A stretch of DNA of 49,394 nucleotides from Planctomycetota bacterium (lineage in GTDB: Bacteria > Planctomycetota > Phycisphaerae > Sedimentisphaerales > Anaerohalosphaeraceae). How positions within the stretch are numbered: the stretch's first letter is position 1; each line of letters starts with the position of its first letter. The stretch spans positions 1 to 49,394 of the forward strand of contig VGXU01000014.1 in NCBI GenBank assembly GCA_016873215.1, read 5' to 3'. Positions 3,331-33,537 of this stretch are shown piece by piece. A program made the translations under genes and the position numbers. The notes beneath the pieces were generated by a model. That model was not told the DNA's origin. It saw only the letters and a program-made list of their open reading frames with translations, and made no database searches.

Positions 3331-3364
3331 TGTGTACTATGTCACACAGTACACATATTGTCAA
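3331..3364 (-). promoter_or_regulatory. Promoter with GntR operator for the ABC operon
   Basis: On the minus strand a perfect -35 (TTGACA, 3359-3364) and a -10 (CATAGT, 3336-3341) are separated by 17 bases. An inverted repeat with arms TGTGTACT (3331-3338) and AGTACACA (3348-3355), nine bases apart, covers the spacer and the -10. Bound repressor would block RNA polymerase. The arms resemble the GTAC-containing half-sites of YtrA-type regulators. The start codon of the GntR gene lies about 38 bases below the predicted start of transcription. Confidence 0.75.
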
Positions 3365-3475: not shown

Positions 3476-3931
3476 TATTCTTGCGCTCTTTTCTCTGCTT
3501 CATTCTAAGTCCGATTTCACTATCCTGCTGTCTTATAAAATTCCATAAATTTTTAACCCCTTTCGCAATAAAGACTTATGATTTCTACAACCTTCAAAAA
3601 TCGCCGATTTTCGACACCGCCACGCAAGTCCAGCCCATATAGGAGACGCTTATTTTGCGCCCCGGAAAGGAGTATGATGTGCCATAATATTATGTAAAAT
3701 CAGTTCAGCTTGAAAAGCTGTCCTTAATTTTGATTTTTGCACTTTGATTTTTGATATCCAAAAAATGGTTCACCCTCATTTTTTGGAAAAACAAACCCAT
3801 TTCAAAAATCGTTAACTTGTTATACAGAAAGGACTAATCTCAAAATCGCAAAACAAAAGCAAACCCAAACAAACCCATTTAACCCAATTGTGGATAACGT
3901 TAATTGAACGCTACACGCGGTACACTGCCCG
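3476..3931. other. AT-rich intergenic region with inverted repeats
   Basis: No convincing gene. It holds a tandem heptamer tract (3728-3755), a small hairpin with arms CAGCTT/AAGCTG (3706-3711, 3715-3720), a perfect inverted repeat with arms TCCAAAAAATG/CATTTTTTGGA (3757-3767, 3777-3787), and a direct repeat AACAAACCCATTT near 3790 and 3867. The 185 bases before 3476 belong to the leader of the GntR operon and an unsupported short open frame. Confidence 0.6.
3728..3755. repeat. Tandem heptamer tract 1
   Basis: Four contiguous 7-base units in exact register: TTTTGAT, TTTTGCA, CTTTGAT, TTTTGAT. Related degenerate tracts occur at 9555, 31361, 39028 and 39927. Confidence 0.8.
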
Positions 3932-17639: not shown

Positions 17640-19319
17640 GTGAAAAAAAAGATACTGCCAAAATCCAAAGAGATGACAGCGCATCACATCCATAAAAAAG
17701 ATTTATGGCTGATAATTGTGGTTATCATTATCAGTATATTCCTCAATGGGCTGGGATTCGGCTGGGGGAAAGACGGCTATGTCCCGTGGTCGCCGGATTC
17801 CATCGAAGGGGTGACCACCGTTCGGGAGCTGCCGAATCTGTTTGGTACATGGACCAACAAATATCCGCGGCTGCAATTTCTGATTGATGGGTTGTGTTAT
17901 AAACCAGTTGTCCGGTCCTGGGAGAGAGAGCCGGTTGCGGTGCAGCGCGGCGGAAGGGTGGAACAATCCGTACTGACTCAGGAACAGCTTGAGGTGCTGG
18001 CGACGATTTCGAGAATTAATATTCTGATTATGTCTGCGGGTATCCTTATTTTTGTATATTTAATCGCCCGGTTTTATTACGCCGATTCGATCGCGGCGTT
18101 TTTTGCTTCTCTGTCTATTGCAGTGACTTTAAATTTTGTCTATTACAGTCATACGACCTGTGTTGATATTCCATCGATGTTCTGGATTACGCTGGGAGTT
18201 TATTTCCTGCTAAAAAGCGTTTATTCGGGCAGCCTGTTTTATCCTGTCATGATGGGAATAGCACTTGCTTGTGCCTGCTGCACCAAGGATCCAATGCTGT
18301 TTTATGCCGCCGCGTTTGCCCTGGCCTACATTGTTTTACGTTTTTATCATTTTCGTCAACAGGGGCTGGGGTTCAAGGCGTGTCTTCTTTCGCTTTTGAA
18401 TCGAAATACTTGGTTAGCGATGGGTGCGTTTTTATTTGTTTTTGCACTGCTTCAGGGCATTTTATTTTCGCCGAAGGCCTACTGGGAGCGGATGGGTGTC
18501 TGGGTTGGGGGCCGTGGAGTTAAGGACTTCAATCAGGGTTTTGGCGGGCAATGGATATTGCTGACCGGAACGCTGGGGTCGTTTTACTGGTCTATCGGCT
18601 GGCCGCTGCTGATGTTATGGTTATTTTCCATGGTATTGACATTTAAAAAGCACCGGCTGCTTAACACGGTTATCGTAATATTGCCGCTGGTTATCTTTTA
18701 TGTTCTGGTTTCAATGCGGATTCATATGAGTTATATCCGGTATTATTTACCGGTGATGGGGGTATTCTTTCTTCCAGTTGGGGCATATATCGCACAACTG
18801 TTTTCCGTGAAAGTCACGTGGGTACGTCGTCCGGCGTTAGCATTGATTGCCTTATGTTATGTCTTGAGCCTGATGAATTGTTTAGCGATGGATATGGAGC
18901 TGATCAATGATTCAAGAAATCAGGCTGCTGAATGGTTTAAAACAAATGTAAAACAGAATACGCCGGTTCTGTCTCTGATTCGGTATCCTTTTGGACTGAA
19001 GTTGTCGAAATTCGGGTATCCAACAATCGATAACTGGAAAGTTCCGCCATTGCAGGTTCTGCTGGATAATCAAAAAAATCTGCCGGAGTATATTGTTATC
19101 AGCAATAACTGGCTGACGATTTCCACCCCGGATGCAGCAGCATTTAAAGAATCGCTGCTGGAGGGCAGGGCGGGATTTACAAAGACTGCGGAATTTGGAA
19201 GTAAAGGATACATGTATCCCCGGCGAAACTGGCTGTCGATTGCGGTCTGGCCGATGCCGTCACGTTTTGAGGAAATCAGTCCGGAAATTATTGTGATGAA
19301 GAAAAAGCCGGCGAAGTGA
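17640..19319 (+). CDS. GT-C (GT39-like) membrane glycosyltransferase
   Basis: 559 residues from the GTG at 17640 (GGAG four bases ahead). One N-terminal helix, then a periplasmic loop with the acidic motif PWSPDSIEG and TWTNKYPRLQF, then about ten helices with a second loop, and a C-terminal soluble domain of about 110 residues. This is the ArnT/PMT-like GT-C layout, using a polyprenyl-phosphate sugar donor outside the membrane. The frame runs 53 codons further upstream, but that part lacks a membrane character and a ribosome site. Acceptor and sugar are unknown. Confidence 0.7.
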   Translation: MKKKILPKSKEMTAHHIHKKDLWLIIVVIIISIFLNGLGFGWGKDGYVPWSPDSIEGVTTVRELPNLFGTWTNKYPRLQFLIDGLCYKPVVRSWEREPVAVQRGGRVEQSVLTQEQLEVLATISRINILIMSAGILIFVYLIARFYYADSIAAFFASLSIAVTLNFVYYSHTTCVDIPSMFWITLGVYFLLKSVYSGSLFYPVMMGIALACACCTKDPMLFYAAAFALAYIVLRFYHFRQQGLGFKACLLSLLNRNTWLAMGAFLFVFALLQGILFSPKAYWERMGVWVGGRGVKDFNQGFGGQWILLTGTLGSFYWSIGWPLLMLWLFSMVLTFKKHRLLNTVIVILPLVIFYVLVSMRIHMSYIRYYLPVMGVFFLPVGAYIAQLFSVKVTWVRRPALALIALCYVLSLMNCLAMDMELINDSRNQAAEWFKTNVKQNTPVLSLIRYPFGLKLSKFGYPTIDNWKVPPLQVLLDNQKNLPEYIVISNNWLTISTPDAAAFKESLLEGRAGFTKTAEFGSKGYMYPRRNWLSIAVWPMPSRFEEISPEIIVMKKKPAK

Positions 19320-19365
19320 TTTTTTAGATAGTAAAAAATCACGACGTAATAATCCGTCCTGTTTG

Positions 19366-31404: not shown

Positions 31405-32079
31405 ATGGCCGAAGAAAAGGAATCGCCGGACCGGTCCGTAAAACCCCACACCAGCAAATTAGCTATTGCGGCAGCGGTAATGGTTTGGATATTTATCCTA
31501 TTTCTGGTTTGGTGGATGTTGTATCATAGCACGTGTTGTCCACCCATCCGAGTTATCTGTGGTACGAAACTCAAAGGGCTTGGCACGGCGATGATAGTGT
31601 ATGCGAATGATTATGACAATCAGTTGCCGCCGGGGGACCAGTGGTGTGATTTACTGATTACTAAAGCGGATGTGTCTCCCAAATCGCTGGTCTGTCCGGA
31701 TTCGGATGCCGTCGAAGGTGAATCTTCATACGCGATGAATATCAATGTCGCCGGCAAAAAGAATACATTTCCGGCGGATGTAGTTTTGTTGTTTGAGACG
31801 GACGCCGGGTGGGATGGTGATTCGCGGACGATGCCTATTGCAAACCGCAGATTTTATTCTTTGTTTAAAGAAAGCGAGAAGGAGTATTACCGGGACAAAC
31901 GAGTTTATCCTCGCCGGTGGAACATGGCGGGCGGGCCGGAAATGCTGACGACACGTTATCACAAGGGCGAGGGATGCAATATTACTTTTGTTGACGGCCA
32001 TACCAGCTACATTCCTTCCAGCCAAATCCAAACACTTCGCTGGGATATAGATAAAACAGAGCCTAATAAGACTTATTAG
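31405..32079 (+). CDS. H-X10-DG membrane-anchored protein
   Basis: 224 residues. A basic N-terminus, one membrane helix (about 22-42, IAAAVMVWIFILFLVWWML), then a soluble domain with LKGLGTAMIVYANDYDNQLPP and a late RYHKGEGCNITFVDGHTSYIP. That ending resembles the H-X9-DG motif of prepilin-type processing-associated proteins common in Planctomycetota, but here ten residues separate His and DG. The FTLIE-type prepilin signal is absent, so it is a membrane-anchored relative rather than a true pseudopilin. GGAG lies before the ATG. Neighbours give no pathway. Confidence 0.7.
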   Translation: MAEEKESPDRSVKPHTSKLAIAAAVMVWIFILFLVWWMLYHSTCCPPIRVICGTKLKGLGTAMIVYANDYDNQLPPGDQWCDLLITKADVSPKSLVCPDSDAVEGESSYAMNINVAGKKNTFPADVVLLFETDAGWDGDSRTMPIANRRFYSLFKESEKEYYRDKRVYPRRWNMAGGPEMLTTRYHKGEGCNITFVDGHTSYIPSSQIQTLRWDIDKTEPNKTY

Positions 32080-32145
32080 GCGCGAGAACAAAAAAACATA
32101 ACTAACTATTTTGTAATCACTTATATAATATTTCAAGGAAAAGTT

Positions 32146-32183
32146 TTTTGTCCAATTTAACGCTGGCGTTAATTTGGACAAAA
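32146..32183. promoter_or_regulatory. 38-bp palindrome, operator candidate 1
   Basis: Two 18-base arms (32146-32163 and 32166-32183) with a single mismatch and a TG centre. The inner core is TTTAACGC-TG-GCGTTAA. It lies 39 bases before the ATG of the DUF4143 ATPase gene and could be an operator or a transcript hairpin; there is no T-run on the plus strand. Confidence 0.65.
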
Positions 32184-32194
32184 TATTTGACTTT

Positions 32195-32212
32195 TTTAAC
32201 ATTGATGTTAAA
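32195..32212. promoter_or_regulatory. 18-bp palindrome, operator candidate 2
   Basis: Perfect TTTAACAT-TG-ATGTTAAA, ten bases before the ATG of the DUF4143 ATPase. It shares the TTTAAC...TG...GTTAA pattern with the core of the upstream 38-bp palindrome; the two centres are 39 bases apart. Confidence 0.65.
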
Positions 32213-32221
32213 TTTTACATA

Positions 32222-33445
32222 ATGAAGATTCGTTATTTACAGCAGGCAATTGAAAAAATAGCCTTTGGCGGCCGGAAAATGGCGTTTGTATCCGGACCGA
32301 GACAGTGCGGCAAAACCACGCTGGGACGGATGCTGGCGGCAAGCCGTTCTGCAAGTCAATATTATAGCTGGGATGATATTGAGTTTCGCAGGCTCTGGAC
32401 GAAATCTCCAAAATCGGTTGTTCCGGAATCTCAGGATGTACCGCTTGTTATTCTTGACGAGATCCATAAAGACCGTACGTGGAAAAGAACACTCAAGGGA
32501 ATTTATGACACCATTCGGTTTGAAGAAAAACCCTGCGATTTTTTTATTACCGGCAGTTCCCGACTGAATGTCTATCGCCGGGGAAGTGACAGCCTGCTTG
32601 GGCGGTACTACTATTTCCGTCTGGCGCCGTTTTCGCTGCGCGAAATGCGAACACCAGAAGTTTTATCGCCGGACGAAGTGATTGATGGTCTTAAACATCG
32701 CAGTCTGTCGGCGGAATCGGAAAACATATCCAACCTGCAATCGCTGCTGCGTTACGGGCCGTTCCCGGAGCCGCTGTTCGGGCAGAATATAAACCAATGG
32801 CGCCTGTGGCGTCAAAATCGCCATGAAACGATTATCCGCGAAGATTTGCGAGACATCACCCGCAGCACGGAAATCGGTAAAATTGAAATGCTCGCGTCCA
32901 TTCTGCCTGATAAGGTCGCATCGCCTTTGAGCATCAATTCGCTGCGGCAGGATATTGAAGTCGGCCATCAAACCCTCCAGCGATGGCTTGGCTGGCTGAA
33001 AGAACTGTATTTTATTTTTGAGGTCAAACCCTGGCATCAAAAAATTCGCCGGTCGCTGAAAAAAGAGGGGAAGATTTATCTCTGGGATTACAGTGAAATT
33101 GAAAACCCCGGCGCACGTTTCGAAAATCTCGTCGCCGTCCATTTAATTAAAGCCTGCAATTACTGGACCGACATGGGGCAGGGAAAATTCGAGCTCTATT
33201 ATTTACGCAATAAAAGCAAGCTGGAAATCGATTTTCTGATTGTTCGCGACGGCAAACCGTGGCTGCCTATCGAGGTTAAACTGGGCGACGAAAGCCCCGC
33301 CGAGAATTGGCGATATTTTCTCCCTGAGTTAAATTGCCGGCTGGCATTGCAAATCACCGAAAAATCATGCTGGAAGCTCTATACCTCACAAGACACAGAT
33401 ATATTGGTTGCCGGTGCCGATGAGGTGCTGATGTATTTTGTGTAG
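32222..33445 (+). CDS. AAA-type ATPase with DUF4143 domain
   Basis: 407 residues. The N-terminal AAA_14 ATPase has Walker A SGPRQCGKTT near 24-33, Walker B VPLVILDEIHK, and sensor-like FITGSSRLNV. The C-terminal DUF4143 part has the nuclease-like strand pattern YYLRNKSKLEIDFLIVRDGKPWLPIEVKLG, whose D...E-K set resembles the PD-(D/E)XK fold. Such proteins are common and patchy among bacteria, of unknown function. Start at ATG 32222; the frame continues upstream through the palindromes, which is not plausible coding. It ends 22 bases from the tRNA gene. Confidence 0.85.
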   Translation: MKIRYLQQAIEKIAFGGRKMAFVSGPRQCGKTTLGRMLAASRSASQYYSWDDIEFRRLWTKSPKSVVPESQDVPLVILDEIHKDRTWKRTLKGIYDTIRFEEKPCDFFITGSSRLNVYRRGSDSLLGRYYYFRLAPFSLREMRTPEVLSPDEVIDGLKHRSLSAESENISNLQSLLRYGPFPEPLFGQNINQWRLWRQNRHETIIREDLRDITRSTEIGKIEMLASILPDKVASPLSINSLRQDIEVGHQTLQRWLGWLKELYFIFEVKPWHQKIRRSLKKEGKIYLWDYSEIENPGARFENLVAVHLIKACNYWTDMGQGKFELYYLRNKSKLEIDFLIVRDGKPWLPIEVKLGDESPAENWRYFLPELNCRLALQITEKSCWKLYTSQDTDILVAGADEVLMYFV

Positions 33446-33466: not shown

Positions 33467-33537
33467 TGCGGGCGACCAGAATCGAACTGGCGTATCATGC
33501 TTGGGAAGCACGTATTCTACCACTGAACTACGCCCGC
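33467..33537 (-). tRNA. tRNA-Gly (anticodon CCC)
   Basis: 71-base cloverleaf: 7-bp acceptor stem GCGGGCG/CGCCCGC, D arm GTTC/GAAT, anticodon stem CGTGC/GCATG with loop TTCCCAA (anticodon CCC, reads GGG), T arm GCCAG/CTGGT with TTCGATT. CCA is not encoded and the discriminator base is A. No att-like duplication of the 3' end was seen nearby. Confidence 0.93.

Follow-up and report, generated by a model that had tools for sequence, protein, structure and literature searches.

A gene for an AAA_14-DUF4143 ATPase in a planctomycete genome is preceded by two palindromes, and the question this locus raises is what reads them. The stretch of DNA analyzed, 49,394 nucleotides in all, is referred to here as the window. 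Our answer, which comes from sequence comparison and which we consider likely, is that the encoded protein reads the dyads of its own promoter and represses its own gene, with a dimer on each dyad and contacts made by a helix and a nuclease loop. The elements upstream of the gene are as follows.

32146..32183, no strand: distal operator dyad (putative), two half-sites; the window's best inverted repeat, with a counterpart in most close relatives
32150..32162, plus strand: half-site A, GTCCAATTTAACG; compare GACCAAATTAACG in homologs 52-56% identical
32167..32179, minus strand: half-site B, reverse complement GTCCAAATTAACG; from the sequence and comparison with close relatives
32187..32192, plus strand: -35 element TTGACT, which begins half-site C; promoter scan, with TTGAC here in most homologs
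32189..32202, plus strand: half-site C, GACTTTTTTAACAT; from homolog comparison and the half-site register
32195..32212, no strand: proximal operator dyad TTTAACATTGATGTTAAA (putative), within the promoter; inverted-repeat scan
32205..32218, minus strand: half-site D, reverse complement GTAAAATTTAACAT; from the sequence
32209..32214, plus strand: -10 element TAAATT; promoter scan, 16-nt spacer, preceded by TG

The distal dyad, TTTTGTCCAATTTAACGCTGGCGTTAATTTGGACAAAA, is the highest-scoring inverted repeat in the 49.4-kb window (score 15.1; runner-up 10.0), compared with best scores of 9.0-9.8 in three shuffled windows, and its RNA fold beats all 200 shuffles (z -5.96). The 38-bp dyad at 32146-32183 that an earlier note had claimed is therefore present and far above shuffles, and re-measurement of the distance between the centers of the two dyads returned the same 39 bases. 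The proximal dyad, TTTAACAT-TG-ATGTTAAA at 32195-32212, had been called a perfect 18-bp palindrome ending ten bases before the ATG. Its 8-bp arms are indeed perfect, but the central TG is not palindromic; it does lie close before the ATG at 32222, but nine bases intervene. Both occurrences of the pattern TTTAACNNTGNNGTTAA in the 2.69-Mb genome are at this locus. Taken by itself the proximal dyad, with its 8-bp arms, is weak: window shuffles yield about one match to the two-mismatch pattern, the symmetry between half-sites C and D is modest (9/14) and the RNA fold is not clearly better than shuffles. What makes it meaningful is its place inside the promoter and its conservation in homologs.

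Other strong inverted repeats of the window lie at 19316-19342, 3331-3355 and 3757-3787, GTGATTTTTTAGATAGTAAAAAATCAC and TGTGTACTATGTCACACAGTACACA among them. A perfect, terminator-like hairpin, GCCTAATAAGACTTATTAGGC (32061-32081), overlaps the stop codon of the upstream gene (31405-32079), whose product resembles a short DUF1559-type (SBP_bac_10) protein in a C-terminal motif only, under the Pfam cut-off.

The proximal dyad sits between the -35 element TTGACT and the -10 element TAAATT and overlaps the latter. Since the ATG at 32222 is 35 nt from the first T of the -35 element, where transcription should begin, the mRNA of the gene is probably leaderless. This geometry is shared: the first T of TTGAC is 34-36 nt from the ATG in 117 of 134 homologs, and the gap between half-sites B and C is 2 nt in 147 of 174. 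A leaderless promoter that moves with its gene may help to account for expression in unrelated hosts.

How widely the dyads recur was examined at increasing distance. Within the phylum, 68 of 392 genomes match the window protein at E <= 1e-20, about 10 of the homologs at 51-56% identity and many more at 35-44%. Most have a common design, with as many as four half-sites that alternate in orientation (A-B, followed by C-D), in which the left arm of the proximal dyad starts within the -35 element (TTGACC or TTGACT) and the right arm includes the -10 element, a few bases from the ATG. The distal dyad is absent in two close relatives (L027 and L028), so the proximal dyad is the constant part. A single-protein search of genome contigs found no relative; an alignment-based scan of GTDB genomes did, yielding 80 further loci in many phyla and groups (among them Lentisphaerae, Acidobacteria, Chlamydiae, Bdellovibrionales, Spirochaetes, Elusimicrobia, Nitrospirae, Verrucomicrobia, Armatimonadetes and Melainabacteria), with dyads preceding most starts. 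Extra searches, first of eight of those genomes and later of the phyla to which five of them belong, brought the final set to 390 distinct genes, many of them from metagenome-assembled genomes. A dyad detector compared scores in -95..+10 with gene-body control windows. The score exceeds the 95th percentile of controls in 71% of the 390 homologs and the 99th in 59%, and a strong dyad lies at -50..+10 in 42%, versus about 1-2% in most other windows. The ortholog comparison that the earlier note had proposed as a check thus finds dyads before homologs of many phyla, and the idea survives the note's own refuting condition, a lack of palindromes at orthologous genes. The roughly 29% without a dyad above the 95th percentile count against it; we put them down to weak dyads, different spacing or mis-annotated starts.

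A number of further loci came to light during these searches. Dyads seemingly lie near the promoters of remote AAA_14-DUF4143 proteins too (about 25-28% identical; L169-L173 and L425), as well as of two other AAA_14 proteins of the window's genome, G000:C62 (L003) and G000:C3 (L005), for example TTTTAGGAATTGGTTCCTAAAA before L005; the operator habit may accordingly run through the whole family. The Bdellovibrionales genome G392 (contigs of L092, L187, L192, L199, L203, L208 and L211) has 19 matches to the family profile, and the operators differ among those examined. In G166:C180:31155-33524, two identical, divergent gene copies (L039 and L052) stand back to back with about 250 bp between them, a perfect inverted duplication that could be real or an assembly artifact. 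The gene is split into AAA and DUF4143 parts, by a break or as two separate matches, in L018 (a Candidatus Bandiella plasmid) and in the planctomycete contigs G046:C3, G212:C449 and G244:C455, which suggests frequent decay. The record that holds L149 is titled as a Klebsiella pneumoniae metagenome-assembled genome, and the bin may be mislabelled. Relatives on viral contigs are only 22-28% identical and a PHROGs search gave no match to the window protein; as far as these tests go, we rejected its identity as a phage gene.

The gene itself encodes a protein of three parts, located as follows.

32222..33445, plus strand: AAA_14-DUF4143 gene, 407 aa; open reading frame and Pfam
32273..32647, plus strand: AAA+ ATPase domain (GPRQCGKTT, DE Walker B); Pfam AAA_14, E 3e-24, and invariant columns
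32873..33082, plus strand: winged helix-turn-helix, residues 218-287; AlphaFold model, pLDDT 94.5
32966..33004, plus strand: predicted recognition helix, residues 249-261 (HQTLQRW...); model helix, with the strongest operator coupling at residues 249-250
33188..33415, plus strand: PD-(D/E)XK nuclease-like part of DUF4143 (E335, D337, E351, K353); invariant or nearly invariant columns, model strands
33212..33214, plus strand: codon of K331, the second-ranked residue in coupling to the operator, at base 4 of the half-site

Both Pfam domains score above their gathering thresholds (85.8 bits versus 27 and 93.3 versus 28.1). Across homologs the residues G25 P R Q x G K T T, D79 E80, E335, D337 and E351 are invariant and K353 is conserved in at least 90%; E335, D337, E351 and K353 are the presumed catalytic residues. 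The AlphaFold model (mean pLDDT 94.5) has an AAA+ core, then a winged helix made of helices 218-231, 238-245 and 249-261 with a wing strand at 265-270, and at the C-terminus a domain like PD-(D/E)XK; the earlier note had likewise given this ATPase a nuclease-like C-terminal part. The top Foldseek matches of the model are Orc1/Cdc6 structures with bound DNA, and a sequence search of the PDB found no relative of the window protein.

Several observations bear on what reads the operator. Half-sites have an outer GAC common to homologs and a core that varies by gene. Among 75 pairs of paralogs within one genome, none has a half-site in common, and similarity between their half-sites is no greater than in matched cross-genome pairs, which argues against a common regulator. 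In the window's own genome, this operator sequence is found at this locus only. In many pairs of relatives the start of DNA similarity falls in the dyads or just inside them, and its end is usually the stop codon, give or take a few bases; no matching repeat at the 3' end of the gene was seen in this comparison. Family paralogs are neighbors at 23 of 200 loci; any other flanking gene has a match at no more than about three of the other loci. The tRNA 22 bases from the end of the gene was correctly noted (the stop codon ends at 33445 and a tRNA-Gly on the minus strand starts at 33467), and because no neighboring gene was found to travel with the ATPase gene, its position is probably coincidental.

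Evidence on the reader also comes from residues and bases that change together. A Mantel scan of 94 genes peaked at residues 249-257, that is, in the recognition helix. A Mantel test that compared the similarity of the arms, with peaks at 274, 83 and 249, was dropped as too blunt and was replaced by registered half-sites and a tree test. Among 222 genes whose half-sites could be placed in register, residue 250 has the highest summed mutual information with the half-site of all 407 columns, and residue 249 the next highest. D250 pairs with G12, N250 with A12 and R250 with C12, and the D250-G12/N250-A12 pattern is seen in both tabulated half-sites, B and C; at residue 249, P tends to go with G at base 10, V with A and Y with T. 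Contacts of Asn with A and of Asp with C are standard preferences in DNA recognition.

To correct for kinship, a tree was built without residues 231-285, so that the winged helix-turn-helix was left out. It shows 19 changes of D250, and in 14 of them G12 changes as well, with matching direction and either on that branch or on a neighboring one. This fraction is equalled by none of 533 other residue states; N250-A12 by itself is weak on the tree (4/19). As the D250-G12 pair had been found on the same data, an unbiased scan of all 42,160 residue-state by base tests was run. At the top was D250-G12 (p 5.5e-11), followed by R331-A4 (p 6.4e-9), with the third only at 3e-6; the p-values were approximated with a binomial over a parsimony tree, and the ranking is sturdier than the figures. 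Fisher tests on 37 representatives below 50% identity had no power and lost significance. Residue 250, the partner of operator base 12, is the second residue of the predicted recognition helix, and residue 331 lies in a turn just ahead of the DUF4143 catalytic strand. In both half-sites, B and C, K331 occurs with T or C at base 4 and R331 mostly has A there, and from this coupling we infer that the nuclease-like domain probably touches the outer part of the half-site. The co-variation of the recognition helix with the operator core supports the suggestion in the earlier note that the ATPase could read the dyads.

Other readings of the dyads have to be weighed against this. Dyads that overlap a promoter are the usual mark of any dimeric repressor, and a separate host transcription factor might bind them and control the ATPase gene. 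We regard this as highly improbable, given that the half-sites vary by gene within one genome, that the window genome holds no other copy of the operator, that no regulator gene travels with the ATPase gene and that changes in the operator go along with changes of ATPase residues. That the dyads work as RNA hairpins, in a bidirectional terminator or a riboregulator, would suit the good RNA fold of the 38-bp dyad, but this dyad lies upstream of the -35 element and would be absent from the gene's transcript; the proximal dyad overlaps the -35 and -10 elements and does not fold clearly better than shuffles. A terminator scan gave nothing at the dyads, the nearby terminator-like hairpin being that at 32061-32081, and the operator bases vary with residues of the protein. 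The hairpin explanation is barely credible.

More of the evidence can be turned toward a recombination or cleavage site, where the nuclease of a mobile or homing element would recognize the repeats and the promoter overlap would be secondary. The dyads and gene are conserved as a unit without their flanks, the distribution over phyla is patchy, the gene occurs on plasmids, the PD-(D/E)XK residues are conserved and the nuclease domain seems to touch the site. We nevertheless think this quite unlikely: the matching 3'-end repeat was not seen, and the rigid placement of the dyads relative to the promoter and ATG is explained only by control of transcription.

Self-repression by the ATPase, the reading we prefer, would work as follows. 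Each dyad would be bound by a dimer of the AAA+ ATPase/winged-helix/PD-(D/E)XK protein, in which the N-terminus of the recognition helix (residues 249-250) would read the inner core of the half-site (bases 10-13) and a loop of the nuclease-like domain (residue 331) would probably read the outer part (base 4). With the -35 element in half-site C, the -10 element in half-site D and transcription predicted to start at or next to the ATG, the bound protein would shut out RNA polymerase. More speculatively, attack by foreign DNA would release the protein and so lead to more of an ATP-dependent nuclease for defense.

We also put forward, tentatively, a wider possibility: that a very large family of single-gene ATPase-nucleases, spread over many phyla of bacteria and perhaps also in archaea, is made up of self-contained portable cassettes. 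Each would have a leaderless promoter in which a gene-specific operator is embedded, and the winged helix and nuclease domain of the encoded protein would read this operator together. Docked by the operator on its own promoter, the nuclease would be in a safe, sensing state, and each paralog would have a private address. Joint reading by the two domains would be the most unusual feature. Autoregulation through promoter dyads is an old principle, and the domain pair and its listing as a defense candidate are known from papers; a literature search on DUF4143/COG1373/PDC-S01 proteins, with most subscription papers outside it, found no operator, promoter geometry or specificity code reported. Such a protein-DNA code would tell where in the cell the protein sits, provide a binding assay and a reporter for finding the trigger, allow the addresses of paralogs to be predicted and suggest that the DNA reader and the nuclease work as a single machine. 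The dyad arrangement precedes hundreds of related genes, in one of the commonest candidate anti-virus gene families of bacteria and archaea.

Among known systems, the archaeal STAND-like ATPases PABY2304 (2qen) and SSO1545 (2fna) and Orc1/Cdc6 (2v1u, 2qby) likewise have an AAA+ core followed by a winged helix, and the Orc1 structures hold DNA; the alignments of 2qen and 2fna to the window protein, at 12-15% identity, end near residue 295, ahead of the PD-(D/E)XK part. In the autoregulation of type II toxin-antitoxin systems the gene product binds dyads over its own promoter, whereas the window locus is one gene with no antitoxin partner, and the reader would carry the putative effector.

The window protein matches the PADLOC PDC-S01 profiles (best PDLC04790, E 2.8e-49) and, like PDC-S01, joins an ATPase to PD-(D/E)XK. 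According to the accessible part of a survey (PMC12988326), PDC-S01 (AAA_14-DUF4143, COG1373 type) is the fourth most common defense candidate in prokaryotes, with 9,986 detections in archaea and 29,494 in bacteria, and validation is pending for most such candidates; that part is silent on any operator and on DNA reading by the protein, and the PDC models have no promoter part. Our literature search found no published validation of PDC-S01 and no reported mechanism, and we infer a defense role for the window protein. In Thermus thermophilus, TT_P0211 (AAA 14, DUF4143), a distant relative with the same domain pair, is up 6.6-fold when a plasmid and TtAgo are both present (PMC4406477). This fits an inducible gene, although induction does not give the mechanism, and the Thermus promoter we looked at was that of the T. 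thermophilus JL-18 homolog rather than that of TT_P0211. RptR and similar regulators of defense islands (PMC12255303) resemble the proposed arrangement in placing a repressor on repeats in the promoter of a defense gene, but RptR is a separate small protein, whereas the window protein would unite reader, ATPase and nuclease in one polypeptide.
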